IMG/VR virus record: IMGVR_UViG_3300047585_000046
Span: 1-39,659 of that record
DNA from: a virus
Length of the DNA stretch: 39,659 nucleotides
Strand: one strand, 5' to 3'
Position numbers and translations under genes: made by a program. Shown piece after piece: positions 6,273-28,912 of this stretch (its first letter is position 1; every line of letters starts with the position of its first letter). The notes beneath the pieces were generated by a model, which worked only from the letters and a program-made list of their open reading frames with translations, had not been told where the DNA came from and made no database searches.

Positions 6273-6659
6273 ATGCCAGAAACAATTTCAACCGATCCAG
6301 ACGCAAGCGTAGTTGATAGTCTTGTAATAAACCTTCCATCCGAATTTGCCATCGCTGGCGATAATGTTGGCGACGTTGTTCTAGACGTTACTTTAGTGCC
6401 CCAAACAGAACATACGGTTTTAGCTGGACCGACTTCAGGTAGCCCGGCAGTTCCAACTTTTAGAGCATTAGAAGTATCCGACATGACCGCTCTTGGTTTA
6501 GGAACGGCTGCTGTAGAAAATTTAGAAGCCGATATTATTGATAATGGTTCCGGCAGTTTAACGATGTCTTCTTTCTCTGATGTTGCTGGTACTTATACAG
6601 TAATTAGTTCAATCACTATTAATGCGGAAGGCAGAGTTACTGCTATTTCTGGTACATAA
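6273..6659 (+). CDS. Tail-fibre associated structural protein
   Basis: The 128-residue beta-rich protein has no charged core and ends in a typical fibre strand pattern (S-I-T-I-N-A-E-G-R-V-T-A-I-S). The segment G-L-G-T-A-A-V-E-N resembles the A-L-G-T-A-A-x-x-D linker found before fibre shafts. ATG 6273 follows GGATTTAAC. Likely a shaft or chaperone-like part of the same appendage; not individually recognised. Confidence 0.5.
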   Translation: MPETISTDPDASVVDSLVINLPSEFAIAGDNVGDVVLDVTLVPQTEHTVLAGPTSGSPAVPTFRALEVSDMTALGLGTAAVENLEADIIDNGSGSLTMSSFSDVAGTYTVISSITINAEGRVTAISGT

Positions 6660-6676
6660 ACCAAGGATCTTAATTA

Positions 6677-7765
6677 ATGGCAGTTAGCACTAAATTTGTT
6701 GGCATTAATACTAATGGCGATTTTAATGAATACGAAGGTATTCAAACATCATCTGGCGCTGCTGCTGGCGATATAGTCGCTTTAAATAGCTCTGCGCAAA
6801 TTGATGCCTCTTTATTGCCTGCTATTTCAGCTACTTATACCCAAAGAACGGATACAGCTTCTTTTAGTGCTCTTTACAATCACTTAGAACAAGTTGATTT
6901 AAATACTGCTGCTGCCAACGTTACCGCAACATTACCTGATGCAACTACTTATAGTGGACAAGGCTTGTTAATCCAAGTTATTACAGCTAGCGCTACCCAT
7001 CATGTCGCATTCGCAACTGTATCATCACAAACAATTAACGGTGCAGCTGCAAGTTCATTAGCTCAACTAGTTAATGTAGACCAAACTTATTTCTTCATAT
7101 CTGATGGTTCAAATTGGTGGACTATCTCCCCGGTAACAAATTTAACCAATAACGTTACTGGAACACTAGCTCCCGCTAGCGGTGGTACTGGTGCAACATC
7201 AGTTCCAACCAATGGCGAAGTGCTAATCGGTAACACGGGCACTGGCGTTTATGATGCCGCAACTATTGGATCATCCGATAGTACAATCACATGGACAACT
7301 GGTGCTGGCAGTTTAACTGCGCAAGTTGATCAAGGTAATTTAACTTTAAGTTCCATTGGTGGTTCACTTAATTTAGCTACACAAGTATCGGGCATCCTGC
7401 CAGTTCTTAATGGGCCAGGTGCATATACTGCTACTGCTGGTTCAACTAATATTACTGCTGGTGCAATGATTTATTTGGATTCATCTAATCACATTCAATT
7501 AGCCGATGCTAATACCGCATTACCTGCGACTGGTTTTGCACCCAGTGCTATTACGGCATCTACTTCTGGCACTGTCGTAATGGGTAATGGCCCTAATGCT
7601 GGTTTAACTGGCTTAACAGCTGGTGATAATTACTTCTTAGGACACAACGGGGCTGTAACTACTACTCCACCAACTACATCAGGCTATTGTTTGCAAAAAG
7701 TTGGTTCAGCTCCAACGACTTCGCTATTAAATGTTTTGTTAGGTCCAGTCATAATTCGGGGTTAA
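6677..7765 (+). CDS. Tail-fibre protein
   Basis: This 362-residue Ser/Thr/Ala/Gly-rich beta protein has the features of phage fibres. S-A-Q-I-D-A-S-L-L-P-A near residue 38 is a common fibre linker. A-S-G-G-T-G-A-T-S at about 168-176 is the classic fibre repeat. The C-terminal domain (about 240-362, G-D-N-Y-F-L-G and S-G-Y-C-L-Q-K-V-G) is a frequent fibre terminal module. AGGATCTTAATTA precedes ATG. Host recognition is expected for its tip. Confidence 0.7.
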   Translation: MAVSTKFVGINTNGDFNEYEGIQTSSGAAAGDIVALNSSAQIDASLLPAISATYTQRTDTASFSALYNHLEQVDLNTAAANVTATLPDATTYSGQGLLIQVITASATHHVAFATVSSQTINGAAASSLAQLVNVDQTYFFISDGSNWWTISPVTNLTNNVTGTLAPASGGTGATSVPTNGEVLIGNTGTGVYDAATIGSSDSTITWTTGAGSLTAQVDQGNLTLSSIGGSLNLATQVSGILPVLNGPGAYTATAGSTNITAGAMIYLDSSNHIQLADANTALPATGFAPSAITASTSGTVVMGNGPNAGLTGLTAGDNYFLGHNGAVTTTPPTTSGYCLQKVGSAPTTSLLNVLLGPVIIRG

Positions 7766-13341: not shown

Positions 13342-14712
13342 TTATTCTACATCTTTCTTAGGTGTAATCAACCACTTAAGAAATTTCTTAGCTGGATGTT
13401 CATTCGTTACTGCTGCAACCGTTGCGCCCTGTAGTACAGCTAATAATTTAGCCCCGTCTATGGACCCCAACCCTGTGCAAGCATCCATACCGACACCTGC
13501 CTTATAAGCGCCATTGTTGCCTTGTGTTATATCATTACAAACTTCAGGATGATTATATAAAACAGTATGTAGATCGCCTATAGATTTACCCAATTGGTGC
13601 GTTAATACAGCGGTCATCGCTGCATACAACGGCGCAACAGCTGATGTGCCACCAATAGCCATATTATCTCCGTCTACATTTACTATATATCCAGTGTCTG
13701 GAGCTGCATCACCAGCAATATCAGGAACGATTCTGCGATTACCGGCAGCGGCTGTTGCGGTAGTGCAAGCAGCGGGAAGTGATTGATAATCCGGTCTGTT
13801 ATATAAAGCAGAATAACCACCGCCGGTGGCACCGTCTGATTGCCAAGTGACTTCAGATGCAATGGTATTGTCGGTATTCAATATTAATTTTGTTCCACCA
13901 CAAGCAATTGCATAAGGCGAAGCTGCTGGATAATCAACATGAGGTTTGCCGTCATTCACTCCGTCACTGGAACCGTTATCGCCAGCGGCTACGAAAACAT
14001 TCATACCCTGTGCTTGCGCTTGCTGAATAAGTGCATCCATGACCGAACGCACAGGAGCTGTCCAGTAATCTTCAGGACTTCCCCAGCTGATACTAACAGC
14101 ACATGGTTTCAGTGGATGATTAATCGCTAATTGCAAAGCATCGCAAAAGCCCTGGTCAGTATTCGGAGCAAATACAACTAATATTTGTACGCCCTGGGCG
14201 ACACCTGCTACAACGCAGACATCTAAATCTACTTCTCCATCAGCGCCATCTGGTCCGTCTGAAAATTCACCAGCGTTATCCGATAGTCCTATGGTGATTG
14301 TTGGTTTATCTAAGCCCATTTGCGTACAGTAAGCATTGACATATTCAGGATTAATTGAACCACCTAATTCAACTAATGCAACACATTCACCGCTTAAAGG
14401 CTCCAAAACCTGTGGAAAATTATAAGCTTTAGCGACCTGCATTGGAGTCAATGATTGCGCCTGTGCTTTTACTTGCCCCTTAACCCGTCTGTATCTATTA
14501 CGTCCGGCATCATGATCGATAATTGCTAAAATTTCATCCTTATTAGGTAATGCACTTTTAGCTATCTTACTTCCAACTTCAAACGTTAAACTGGTAACTT
14601 TGGTAGCGGCATGAACTATTTTTCCGCCTAATTCTATAATGCGTTTCACTATGTGAAGATTTGATGCCAGAACCGCTTTTCTAGGAGTTAAATAGACTGT
14701 ATAGCGTTTCAT
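13342..14712 (-). CDS. Sedolisin / kumamolisin-type serine protease (S53)
   Basis: This 456-residue protein is a clear S53 peptidase. The catalytic Glu/Asp pair is E160 and D164 in G-E-V-D-L-D. The oxyanion Asp is D245 in V-A-A-G-D-N-G-S. The nucleophile is S357 in G-G-T-S-A-V-A-P. The calcium-site pattern D394-I-T, then G406-x-G408-x-D410 and C-T-G-L-G-S, is also present. The N-terminal 100 residues form a pro-region much shorter than the usual S53 pro-domain of about 180 residues. No signal peptide is seen. Sedolisins normally work at acid pH and are secreted; a phage-encoded copy is very unusual. It overlaps the upstream gene by 4 bases. Confidence 0.9.
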   Translation of the reverse strand: MKRYTVYLTPRKAVLASNLHIVKRIIELGGKIVHAATKVTSLTFEVGSKIAKSALPNKDEILAIIDHDAGRNRYRRVKGQVKAQAQSLTPMQVAKAYNFPQVLEPLSGECVALVELGGSINPEYVNAYCTQMGLDKPTITIGLSDNAGEFSDGPDGADGEVDLDVCVVAGVAQGVQILVVFAPNTDQGFCDALQLAINHPLKPCAVSISWGSPEDYWTAPVRSVMDALIQQAQAQGMNVFVAAGDNGSSDGVNDGKPHVDYPAASPYAIACGGTKLILNTDNTIASEVTWQSDGATGGGYSALYNRPDYQSLPAACTTATAAAGNRRIVPDIAGDAAPDTGYIVNVDGDNMAIGGTSAVAPLYAAMTAVLTHQLGKSIGDLHTVLYNHPEVCNDITQGNNGAYKAGVGMDACTGLGSIDGAKLLAVLQGATVAAVTNEHPAKKFLKWLITPKKDVE

Positions 14713-15055: not shown

Positions 15056-15535
15056 TCAATGCTTTAAATATACAGATTGCACTTTGCCGCCGGTATAAAT
15101 GTCCATTGTTTCAGTAAGAGCAATTGCTTCTGTAGCAGTCTTGCCACACATCATTGCTGATAAGGCGAAATCTTGACCAGAACCAATCGAAATAGGGGAC
15201 ATCACTTCTATGGGATTTGAATCGGATAAATACATAAATGCTTTACCGTCTTCGTAAACTACTAAAGCTTCTATACTGTCTGAGGATATATTCAACGGAC
15301 GACTTTGATCGGTATCGAACCATTTTAAAAATAAATTAATCTGGGTTACTTCTCCTGCACAGGCTACCCAAGCCTTATGCGGATAAGAAAAATGAATTTT
15401 CGGTCCGCTATCCAATTTGCGATTACCTTGGGTTCTTTGACTATCAGCGGCTAGAATGTGCCCGTCATAAGCGATTGTTGTTGCTTGCACAGGAGCCATT
15501 AGCAACAAGCAAAAAAGCAAAGTAAGAAGTTTCAT
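15056..15535 (-). CDS. Exported proteasome-like Ntn-hydrolase
   Basis: The 159-residue protein begins with a signal peptide (K2, hydrophobic core 3-13, A-P-V-Q-A at 14-18), immediately followed by T19-T-I-A-Y-D-G. That is the N-terminal strand of proteasome beta/HslV-type hydrolases, in which Thr1 is the nucleophile. Other family features: A-A-D-S with D31, K46 in P-K-I (equivalents of proteasome D17 and K33), C-A-G at 59-61, G-S-G at 118-120, D145 and T-G-G at 148-150. Cleavage after A18 would expose T19 as the catalytic residue. The mature chain (141 residues) is shorter than HslV. The second copy at 19689-20285 lacks a signal. Substrate unknown. Confidence 0.8.
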   Translation of the reverse strand: MKLLTLLFCLLLMAPVQATTIAYDGHILAADSQRTQGNRKLDSGPKIHFSYPHKAWVACAGEVTQINLFLKWFDTDQSRPLNISSDSIEALVVYEDGKAFMYLSDSNPIEVMSPISIGSGQDFALSAMMCGKTATEAIALTETMDIYTGGKVQSVYLKH

Positions 15536-15660: not shown

Positions 15661-15990
15661 ATGATTTCCGAACAAGATAAAACAATGTGGATAGACGCTC
15701 TTAGAAGTGGTCATTTTGAACAAATTAAAGAAACCTATACTAATATGGCTGGCGGCTACTGCGCAGTCGGTGTTTTAGGTGCCGTTGTTGCCGAAAGAGA
15801 CGGATTAGAATTTTTCGAAGCATTAGAAGACTACACCATGGAATATGGCAGGCGTCGAATATCGTATAAGACACTGAACGAAATCTTTAAATTGAACGAC
15901 GCAGATTTCGAATTCGCAGTTATCGCTGATTTTATCGAACTGAATGTCCCAGTATTCGCTGAACAGAAAGTCCCCGCTTTAGTAGCTTAA
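15661..15990 (+). CDS. Small phage protein of the C-x-x-G-V-L family
   Basis: This 109-residue protein matches a widespread phage family: W-I-D-A-L-R-S-G-H-F-E-Q near the start (10-21), G-Y-C-A-V-G-V-L at about 33-40, and a helical end (L-N-E-I-F-K-L-N-D-x-x-F-E-F-A-V-I-A-D-F-I-E). The family has no known function. GAGAGG precedes ATG 15661, and a TATAGT box lies at 15625-15630. It overlaps the convergent primase gene by 59 bases, a long antiparallel overlap. Confidence 0.65.
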   Translation: MISEQDKTMWIDALRSGHFEQIKETYTNMAGGYCAVGVLGAVVAERDGLEFFEALEDYTMEYGRRRISYKTLNEIFKLNDADFEFAVIADFIELNVPVFAEQKVPALVA

Positions 15991-16852
15991 AAGCGCTAAT
16001 GATTTGTTTAAATGTATGATTGCCGTTATTCCAATGGCAGTACAGAACATTTTCTTGTGGATTGATATATAGATTGGCAGCCGTCTTGTCGTGACCTTCA
16101 CTGTCGCACATAGGGCACCTGGTCATAATTTCACCGCTGGGTAATTCTTTTAACGGCCAGTCTTCAGGGACTAAATCTAATAACGATCCCTGCGGAGATA
16201 CGGTTTTCCGTCTTGGCTTAGATTTACTATCAATGATTGGCAAAGCAGTGCTTTTTAAGTATTGCAAAATGTTCGTAGTTTGGGATAATGGCTGTTGTAA
16301 TACCCACTGCACCTGGTCCCTGTAATCATAAGAAAGACACCCGCTAAAAAGACTAGTCGCCCTAGCGACGCCTGGCTTACGATTGTGTCCCAGTGGCAAT
16401 CGTATTCCATTGCCTACCCCTCCGGGCTTCACTGTGGCTTGTTTTGGAAAGAATTCTATATCTGGAATCGCATTGAAAATCTTACTATGTTGTCCGAAGG
16501 TAAAAGCCTCTTGACTGCTAAGTGGTTCTGATAAGAAGATCCAAATGTGTCCCGCCCTGTTTGCTCTAGCCCCCTCTTTTAGGGGGTTTAAGTGAAGGCT
16601 TTGCAACCACATTTCTATACGATTTAATCTCCAGGGATCGTCATTATCATCATCCCAGGCTAAGTATTTGCATGTACCTTCCCGGCTAATTGCTGGTAAA
16701 CACAGGGTTACTTCACCACTAAAATGTTTACGTAATATATCACCGGTAATTGGTTCTTCTACTAAAAGGTAAGCGCCCGTGTCCCGCTGACGATAATAGC
16801 AATCATTGCGATTGCTGAACATTTCCAGATATTGCTGTGCTAACGATTTCAA
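15932..16852 (-). CDS. Archaeo-eukaryotic-type primase with zinc-binding C-terminus
   Basis: The 306-residue protein uses TTG 16852, 9 bases after AGGAG. Residues about 20-160 match the AEP primase domain of the type seen in TOTE conflict systems: metal-binding acidic cluster A-W-D-D-D at 65-69, H102 in G-H-I-W-I-F, E-F-F-P-K-Q and the R151 motif G-I-R-L-P-L-G. Residues about 244-282 form a CHC2-like zinc site (C246-x-x-C249, C272, H273/H279). It would make RNA or DNA primers for phage replication. No helicase domain is attached, so a separate helicase outside the window is likely. The start overlaps the upstream gene by 50 bases. Confidence 0.75.
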   Translation of the reverse strand: MKSLAQQYLEMFSNRNDCYYRQRDTGAYLLVEEPITGDILRKHFSGEVTLCLPAISREGTCKYLAWDDDNDDPWRLNRIEMWLQSLHLNPLKEGARANRAGHIWIFLSEPLSSQEAFTFGQHSKIFNAIPDIEFFPKQATVKPGGVGNGIRLPLGHNRKPGVARATSLFSGCLSYDYRDQVQWVLQQPLSQTTNILQYLKSTALPIIDSKSKPRRKTVSPQGSLLDLVPEDWPLKELPSGEIMTRCPMCDSEGHDKTAANLYINPQENVLYCHWNNGNHTFKQIISAFKLLKRGLSVQRILGHSVR

Positions 16853-19210: not shown

Positions 19211-19765
19211 TTTACGATGATGCATGTTGATAGCTTTCGTTAATTGATTTTTTAAATCATCTAAAGTTTTATTATTGTAAATTGTATGACCGCCAATATG
19301 CGTAATGGTTTCAGCGCTAATGGTGGCAACTTCTAATTCAGATGCATGATTGTCTATTTCGAAATCCTTAACCATGCCACGGGCAATACGCAATCGTTCA
19401 TCAGCAAAGATTTGCATGATACATGCTTTGTGTGCAATTAGCGTTTTTAATTCATTGAAATATCTTAAATCATCAATAATCAAATTACTTTCAGGATGTC
19501 CATCGAAATAATTCATGACAAAATTGACCCACACATCAGGGTTTTCTTTCCTGGCTGCTTCGCCATGGTCTTGCATTAAAGAACGATATTTTTCCTTAGC
19601 AACGTTATCATACAAATCTTTCAACGGTATGTCATACAGCTCACTTAAACGGTGCTTCAAAGCATCGGCGAAACCTAGTCGAATAAAATCAGGATTTAGT
19701 TCTTTTATTAAGTTGGCGCTTGTTGTTTTGCCGCTTTTTCGTTTTCCGCTTAAGGCTATTATCAT
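19178..19765 (-). CDS. Deoxynucleoside monophosphate kinase
   Basis: This 195-residue P-loop kinase begins M-I-I-A-L-S-G-K-R-K-S-G-K-T-T. The Walker A is G7-x4-G12-K13-T14. Further features are F-A-D-A-L-K (33-38), a substrate-binding stretch R-S-L-M-Q-D-H-G-E (61-69) and I-D-D-L-R-Y (97-102). These match T4 gp1-type dNMP kinases, which phosphorylate dNMPs to dNDPs for phage DNA synthesis. The first 77 bases overlap the 3' end of the Ntn-hydrolase gene in another frame. Confidence 0.85.
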   Translation of the reverse strand: MIIALSGKRKSGKTTSANLIKELNPDFIRLGFADALKHRLSELYDIPLKDLYDNVAKEKYRSLMQDHGEAARKENPDVWVNFVMNYFDGHPESNLIIDDLRYFNELKTLIAHKACIMQIFADERLRIARGMVKDFEIDNHASELEVATISAETITHIGGHTIYNNKTLDDLKNQLTKAINMHHRKLADQKFTVLT

Positions 19766-20285
19766 CTTTGTATGTCCCCGTCCAGAAGAAGATTTTTTCA
19801 GGATCTACATTTGCTAATTGTTCTTGTGTGATTGAATATACAGGTAAACCGGTGTGTCTGCAAGCACCAGATTGTGCCGTTCTTTCTATAGCATCATGAG
19901 CATTTAGTTTTAGTTCTTTCATTAACGCTTTGCTATAGGTAGAGCCAGTCAAAGTCCCCCAGGTTTCCGGTGACCAATCCAGTAACATTCCTTTGCCTTT
20001 GCTATCCCTGAAAAATTGAAACAGTCCATGTTGGTTAAATAATAGTAACTGTGTCCCTCCGGCTAATCTGGGATATTTTTTAGGAGAACAGCCATCAATA
20101 ATCCATTGTTCAAAAGCTTGAATTTCATCTACTTGACCGGCACCGGACAGAGCCATACCTTTAATAATTTTAATCTTTGAACTATTACCGCTTGCTACAT
20201 AGCAATCTCCTATATCCTTAGTGGTAATTAAGGTGTCCGCCGCTAAAACCTTGCCATCATACGCTAAAGTTGTAATAACAATCAC
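19689..20285 (-). CDS. Proteasome-like Ntn-hydrolase without signal peptide
   Basis: The 198-residue protein starts at GTG 20285, in a GTGA overlap with the stop of an upstream remnant. M-I-V-I-T-T-L-A-Y-D-G-K-V-L-A-A-D-T aligns with the exported copy at 15056-15535 from T5/T6. D17 and K37 would be the D17/K33 equivalents. A-L-S-G-A-G-Q-V-D, G-S-T-Y-S-K-A-L-M and T-G-L-P-V are family features. The nucleophile would be T5 after removal of four residues, or the chain may start differently. The last 26 codons encode a Lys/Arg-rich tail (K-R-K-T-K-K-R-Q-N-N-K-R) overlapping dNMP kinase. It probably acts in the cytoplasm or virion. Confidence 0.7.
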   Translation of the reverse strand: MIVITTLAYDGKVLAADTLITTKDIGDCYVASGNSSKIKIIKGMALSGAGQVDEIQAFEQWIIDGCSPKKYPRLAGGTQLLLFNQHGLFQFFRDSKGKGMLLDWSPETWGTLTGSTYSKALMKELKLNAHDAIERTAQSGACRHTGLPVYSITQEQLANVDPEKIFFWTGTYKDDNSLKRKTKKRQNNKRQLNKRTKS

Positions 20286-28205: not shown

Positions 28206-28388
28206 ATGAGCAATGAAGAATTATTAATGGAATTTGAAGCTTTGCGCACCCGTCTAAATAACGGCGGCAAAGGGCGCACTTTAGCGGAAGCAGCTAATTC
28301 AATTCAGCTACTTTATTATTGGGCGTACCAAAAACTGGTTCGGGCTGGTCTGAAGCCACAAATTAAAAAGAAGTACAGGTTAATATGA
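28206..28388 (+). CDS. Small unknown protein upstream of PDZ paralogue 2
   Basis: The 60-residue helical, basic protein (E-E-L-L-M-E-F-E-A-L-R-T-R-L-N-N-G-G-K-G-R-T-L) ends in an ATGA overlap with the PDZ-like gene, so the two are coupled. No family recognised. Confidence 0.5.
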   Translation: MSNEELLMEFEALRTRLNNGGKGRTLAEAANSIQLLYYWAYQKLVRAGLKPQIKKKYRLI

Positions 28389-28912
28389 AAACTTACATAA
28401 TACCTTTAATTATTTTAAGTTTCATGTCGGTAACGACACCCGCTACAGCATATACCTTACAGGGCGAAACATCCATCCAGGAGCTGTTCCCTGATGCACA
28501 GCAAAGCGGAATTGACATCAATCAGACGGAAACGACGGCAGAAATACCGCTTCAGGCGGAACGGGGTTGGCAATCTATGCCAATACCGGCATATCAGTTA
28601 CAAACCCGACAATCACCTGGTATATTGGGTTTTTGGGTAAGTCCCATGCAACCGCATTATGTTACGCAGGTAGAACCAGCTTCCGATGCTTTTGGTTATA
28701 TTTTTGTCGGAGATATCATTCTATCTATGGACAACATAGATGCACATCGCTATTGGCAAGCCGGACAAAATATTGGGGCACCGGGGACAACTACAGTTGT
28801 CACCTACCGGCATAATGGTTTAATCAGTACCATTACTGTCAGGCGAAAGCCTATTGAAGACTTTCCAGAACAAATGCGTTCGCAGTTAAATTGGCCAGCG
28901 TTGAATAGGTAA
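28385..28912 (+). CDS. Secreted PDZ-like protein (paralogue 2)
   Basis: The 175-residue protein has a Sec signal peptide (about 22 residues, P-A-T-A-Y), a polar linker rich in Gln/Thr/Glu, and a C-terminal PDZ-like domain (about 85-168): I-L-G-F-W-V, V-E-P-A-S-D-A-F-G-Y-I-F-V-G-D-I-I-L-S-M-D, V-V-T-Y-R-H-N-G and R-R-K-P-I-E-D-F-P-E-Q. These blocks align with 947-1408. It sits between neck and sheath genes, an unexpected place for an exported protein. It carries a GACACCCGCT copy at the signal peptide. No protease domain is fused. Confidence 0.75.
   Translation: MKTYIIPLIILSFMSVTTPATAYTLQGETSIQELFPDAQQSGIDINQTETTAEIPLQAERGWQSMPIPAYQLQTRQSPGILGFWVSPMQPHYVTQVEPASDAFGYIFVGDIILSMDNIDAHRYWQAGQNIGAPGTTTVVTYRHNGLISTITVRRKPIEDFPEQMRSQLNWPALNR

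Follow-up and report, generated by a model that had tools for sequence, protein, structure and literature searches.

A phage proteasome homologue with a predicted signal peptide ending at its catalytic threonine

INTRODUCTION

How does a proteasome-like hydrolase obtain its N-terminal catalytic threonine when the reading frame places a hydrophobic leader directly in front of it? Ntn catalysis requires a free alpha-amino group, and in HslV and the proteasome Thr1 is exposed by autolysis or by removal of Met. The question is raised by a gene in a 39.7 kb virus record, which carries tail sheath, head and tail genes and is taken here over its whole length of 39,659 nucleotides (the window). The initial annotation proposed that export itself would free the threonine. 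The usual view of proteasome-like enzymes is that they are cytoplasmic machines, and a Sec-exported one would put the family in the cell envelope.

RESULTS

The precursor gene and its parts

The gene lies on the minus strand, which the initial annotation had left unstated; the plus-strand reading of 15056-15535 is full of stops. Translation of 15535..15056 opens with MKLLTLLFCLLLMAPVQA, followed directly by TTIAYDGHILAADSQ, and thus gives V16-Q17-A18 and then T19-T20-I-A-Y-D-G, as had been claimed. The features referred to below are:

15056..15535, minus: precursor ORF of the putatively exported PPH-type proteasome homologue, 159 aa, ATG start at 15535
15482..15535, minus: predicted Sec signal peptide, residues 1-18, MKLLTLLFCLLLMAPVQA
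15059..15481, minus: predicted mature chain T19-H159, 141 aa, proteasome-beta/HslV fold
15479..15481, minus: T19, presumed nucleophile (Thr1 after cleavage), preceded by the non-start codon GCA (Ala)
15443..15445, minus: D31 (mature D13), equivalent of proteasome Asp17, invariant in 54 sequences
15398..15400, minus: K46 (mature K28), equivalent of proteasome Lys33, invariant in 54 sequences
15176..15184, minus: G118-S119-G120, GSG motif of the proteasome Ser129 region (profile alignment)
15101..15103, minus: D145 (mature D127), equivalent of Asp166, invariant
15086..15094, minus: T148-G149-G150, TGG motif, corresponding to SGG of proteasome beta (profile alignment)

The mature chain is a PPH-type proteasome homologue

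From residue 19 to residue 158 the protein matches phrog_1040, 'peptidase HslV family' (E=4e-32), an assignment which on this sequence match lies far beyond chance. The phrog_1040 family in turn matches the PPH (group I proteasome-like) proteins of Fuchs, Alva and Lupas 2021 (PMC8665760). The Pfam Proteasome model gave a weak match, under the family cut-off, and the HslV equivalog model TIGR03692 scored 12 bits, below its cut-off of 157.75. Relatives were found by tblastn in 598 records of isolated phages, all at less than 60% identity and the best at ∼35%. A single-protein scan of viral_contigs returned no close relatives, and phiKX1, the nearest isolated phage, is without a detectable family member.

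We aligned 54 mature chains, comprising T19-H159 of the window and 53 relatives. D31, K46, G118, G120 and D145 (mature D13, K28, G100, G102 and D127) are invariant in this alignment, and conservation of T19 (mature T1) reaches 90% or more. The profile of the family hits proteasome beta subunits with E=2.8e-11 and HslV with E=7e-8, and its alignment to proteasome beta pairs the conserved residues with Asp17, Lys33, the GSG of Ser129 and Asp166 (proteasome numbering), and TGG with SGG. The N-terminal hairpin has four residues fewer than that of the proteasome (T1 to D of 12, versus 16), which leaves the HMM alignment ambiguous by one residue at the first Thr.

An AlphaFold2 model of the mature chain, built on the 54-sequence alignment, has a mean pLDDT of 95 and a pTM of 0.89. 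Its best Foldseek match in the PDB is HslV (1g3i_G, E=3.7e-9, TMq 0.81, probability 1.00), and further top matches are proteasome beta subunits and BPH. Thus the HslV-like fold expected by the initial annotation was recovered, and D31, K46, G-S-G and T-G-G are where it had placed them.

The model has one helix (45-57) between the strand blocks, not two. The window chain therefore shows the length of ∼140 residues (141 aa) and the missing helix H2 that characterise PPH proteins, and T19, D31 and K46 supply the equivalents of Thr1/Ser1, Asp17 and Lys33. It departs from the description in one respect, the lack of a propeptide, since an 18-residue leader and a GCA codon stand before the window Thr. 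We nevertheless retain the protein as a PPH variant, because PMC8665760 reports that family members lack propeptides but does not define the family by this.

Four divergent leaders end at the same junction

Signal peptides were called by explicit rules (hydrophobic core, -3/-1 residues) combined with comparative evidence. By rule, the window leader has the basic n-region, hydrophobic core and small -3/-1 residues of a Sec/SPase I substrate: one Lys, a core with a best 10-residue mean KD of 3.1, Pro at -4 and V-Q-A at -3 to -1. Comparable leaders precede the threonine in three other phage sequences, namely MHKFLAPLAALILSTAPALA, followed by TTIAFDG, in a 146.7 kb contig (L161), MVSHLKGFLLLFSFISIGNFLLPAYC in sister phage G005 (locus L126), and MHYKSLLLAVSMTLSSYMPAWS in sister phage G004 (locus L127). 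The junctions and the codons immediately before the threonine are as follows:

window: VQA-TT, GCA
L161: ALA-TT, GCC
G005: AYC-TT, TGC
G004: AWS-TT, AGT

All four leaders combine a basic residue with a hydrophobic core and have Pro at -4; their residues at -1 (A, A, C and S, in the order above) and at -3 (V, A, A and A) are small. Their sequences are mostly dissimilar, and it is the position of the junction that is conserved; Cys, which G005 has at -1, is found less often at signal-peptidase sites. The proposal of a signal peptide ending at the threonine thus gained three divergent leaders beyond that of the window. Considered together, the leaders and their junctions strongly support Sec export, with signal peptidase predicted to expose Thr1.

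Some details of these genes vary. No clear Shine-Dalgarno sequence precedes the ATG of the window ORF or that of L127, the first codon of L126 is ambiguous (TTG/GTG/TTG), and in L161 the TGG motif lacks GG.

Three other accounts of the leader region were considered and rejected. A lipoprotein signal does not fit, there being no lipobox (the Cys of L126 is at -1 and is preceded by P-A-Y); a Tat signal does not fit, as twin Arg is absent; and an internal start at the -1 codon does not fit, as GCA, GCC, AGT and TGC are non-start codons.

Most relatives begin at the threonine

The codon before the threonine was surveyed in 58 non-redundant relatives, consisting of 57 IMG/VR viral contigs, the two sisters included, and one bacterial MAG. 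It was ATG in 44, GTG in six, TTG in four, and ATT, ATC, TGC and AGT in one each, so that a start codon (ATG, GTG or TTG) directly precedes the catalytic Thr in 54 of the 58. The TGC and AGT codons belong to the sister phages, G005 (L122) and G004 (L121) respectively, which were located via the tail sheath gene. Those bacterial-genome copies that were readable also have ATG before the Thr. Only four family members were found with a non-start codon at this position, the window and three phage contigs, and all four have a leader.

As a null test, we asked how often open sequence upstream of the Thr resembles a leader. At least 15 open codons precede the Thr in 28 of the 58 relatives, and only the two sisters among these pass the core and -3/-1 test, which argues against chance read-through as the origin of the leader. 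The predicted junction was also used as a query: the pattern A-x-small-TTIA[YFW]DG, run against 2.9 million viral contigs, returned three loci, these being G004, L161 and one unrelated protein. L161 was thus found through the predicted junction rather than through overall similarity, and is a family member by its match to phrog_1040 (E=1.5e-27). Two scans with ATTIA[YW] patterns gave 22 loci and no family members. When isolated phages were searched with the leader and N-terminus, none of the matches listed reached across the leader core.

Phylogeny, paralogues and gene neighbours

The tree unites the window with its two sisters (support 99/82). With L161 added, the four predicted exported forms group together with weak support (UFBoot about 85-86, SH-aLRT 8), and a single origin of the four is likely on this phylogeny.

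At least three of the four leader-bearing phages also encode a second, leaderless family member: the window, G005 (L125) and L161 (3768-4289). One family member was found in G004; the records may be fragments. It is possible, though somewhat less likely than not, that the PPH family has split in some phages, with one paralogue cytoplasmic and the other exported; the latter would be the first enzyme of the proteasome family known to be activated by signal peptidase and to act outside the cytoplasm. The paralogue and the two neighbours of the exported gene in the window are:

19689..20285, minus: second PPH paralogue, leaderless, V/M-I-V-I-TTLAYDG, phrog_1040 E=3e-12
15932..16852, minus: AEP-TOTE-type primase, upstream neighbour, PF22548 E=1.2e-17
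13342..14712, minus: kumamolisin-like (sedolisin S53) peptidase, phmmer against kumamolisin 1t1e E=5e-87

AUU or AUC stands directly before the Thr in the window paralogue (20274-20285, minus), L125, L035 and L130, with a Shine-Dalgarno-like stretch 7-10 nt upstream, and in L125 an in-frame upstream stop leaves no ATG, GTG or TTG. These codons look like rare start codons, and translation of the window paralogue may start at the AUU.

The order primase, exported PPH and kumamolisin-like peptidase is kept in the window and both sisters. The peptidase has no obvious signal peptide, and a sedolisin was not detected in the L161 record, so this neighbour is not universal. In the sisters, an opposite-strand gene adjoining the exported PPH (L128:6509-7369, minus; L129:6479-7285, minus) encodes a protein with a G-G-x-H-H-A stretch that may resemble histone-deacetylase-like amidohydrolases. 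In L161, the product of 6569-7213 (minus), whose gene lies a few genes upstream of its PPH pair, carries the signal-peptide-like leader MKSLLPLALACALSLQPAMA and may resemble PLD-like nucleases.

Elsewhere in the window, two proteins have signal-peptide-like N-termini (28385-28912 and 947-1408, both plus); the former has a weak PDZ match, and distant similarity to it occurs in all five related phage records. A short Lys/Ala-rich protein (2062-2430, plus) has MKKASLVAALAVALLTVAPAHA, a textbook signal peptide. At its left end, positions 39-329, the record contains short tandem repeats that read PSGLCQAGRR on the minus strand.

DISCUSSION

A proposed route of activation

The mature chain is modelled with a proteasome-type fold, its active-site residues are conserved, and a cleavage motif lies at the Thr, at a junction kept in four divergent phage sequences. 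The best explanation, and one that we hold with considerable confidence, is an exported PPH whose Thr1 is exposed by signal peptidase and which acts as a threonine amidohydrolase outside the cytoplasm. On this proposal, a phage PPH-type proteasome homologue would have gained a Sec signal peptide ahead of its catalytic Thr. The host Sec system would translocate the precursor and signal peptidase I would cleave after A18, turning Thr19 into a free N-terminal Thr1. Together with D31 and K46, Thr1 would then form a threonine amidohydrolase, probably a peptidase. The precursor would be inactive in the cytoplasm, as its Thr is internal and has no free alpha-amino group. The contrast drawn by the initial annotation, silent in the cytoplasm and active in the periplasm, would follow from Ntn chemistry, provided that the host has a periplasm. 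By capsid and sheath, the closest isolated phages are Komagataeibacter phages (31-38% identity), which is weak evidence for a Gram-negative host.

What the exported protein does is the point at which an alternative carries most weight. It may be exported and yet not be a peptidase, acting instead as a specific ligase or as a binding protein, and we consider this unlikely, though by no means negligible. We found no published activity for a PPH, and the monomeric ligase connectase belongs to the proteasome-like family (PMC8665760). Conservation of all the active-site residues speaks against a role in binding alone, but is compatible with a peptidase and a ligase alike. Of these activities we favour a peptidase whose target would be an envelope protein or peptide.

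A second alternative is that translation begins past the start of the leader, at M13 for instance. The enzyme would then be cytoplasmic and carry a short propeptide, which autolysis or some other peptidase would trim, as happens in certain proteasome beta subunits. Two of the leaders do contain an internal Met from which such a short cytoplasmic form could start (window M13, MAPVQA-TT; L127 M18, MPAWS-TT), and no good Shine-Dalgarno sequence stands before the upstream ATG codons. However, neither M13 nor M18 is preceded by a Shine-Dalgarno sequence, L126 has no Met past the hydrophobic core and L161 none beyond the leader Met, and all four upstream sequences are charged-hydrophobic leaders with a terminal cleavage motif. 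The residue at -1 is A, A, C or S and never Gly, which is typical of proteasome autolysis. The wider family, moreover, is without propeptides, both in PMC8665760 and in our codon survey. A downstream start is therefore very improbable.

The prospect is just as slim that the leader is an uncleaved signal anchor tethering the protein to the inner membrane with T19 non-catalytic: its core is strong and its cleavage is a prediction, but each of the four leaders has Pro(-4)-x-x-small immediately ahead of the conserved Thr, the mature active-site residues are all retained, and the domain would follow the membrane segment without a linker.

If the PPH family has split into two such paralogues, the exported enzyme could, for example, act on envelope proteins and thereby exclude competing phages or prepare lysis. 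Export with exposure of Thr1 by signal peptidase would be a natural, non-autolytic way to an N-terminal Thr. By narrowing the substrate to the envelope, the exported form would also provide a handle on the role of the widespread, uncharacterised PPH proteins.

Comparison with known systems

In common with PPH/phrog_1040 proteins, the window protein is the product of a single phage gene, with a mature chain of 141 aa against ∼140, T1-D-K with GSG and TGG, and one helix pair reduced. PMC8665760 describes propeptides in proteasome beta subunits and HslV and in no other proteasome-like homologue, and the words signal peptide and periplasm are absent from its main text. Unlike the PPH proteins described there, the window protein has an 18-residue leader ending at Thr1. 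It shares its fold (TMq 0.81 to HslV) and catalytic residues with HslV, proteasome beta and BPH, but whereas these are cytoplasmic it is predicted to be exported, and its N-terminal hairpin is shorter. The genes examined included no recognised HslU-like unfoldase partner.

The precedent for an Ntn nucleophile exposed by signal peptidase was checked on 20 PF02275 genes from Pseudomonadota genomes. A signal-peptide-like leader directly precedes the catalytic Cys in 14 of the 20, a start codon stands there in five, and one leader ends in Pro. Choloylglycine hydrolase and penicillin V acylase (PF02275) thus resemble the window protein in having the start Met before the nucleophile swapped for a signal peptide. 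They differ in that the nucleophile is Cys, the domain has ∼300 residues, and the genes are bacterial and belong to another Ntn family, whereas the window gene is that of a phage. That the same exchange is seen in two Ntn families makes the export reading more plausible and its novelty narrower. The initial annotation knew of no such activation route; as far as we have found, in a thin literature, activation by signal-peptide removal is new for the proteasome-like branch only, and not for Ntn hydrolases in general.
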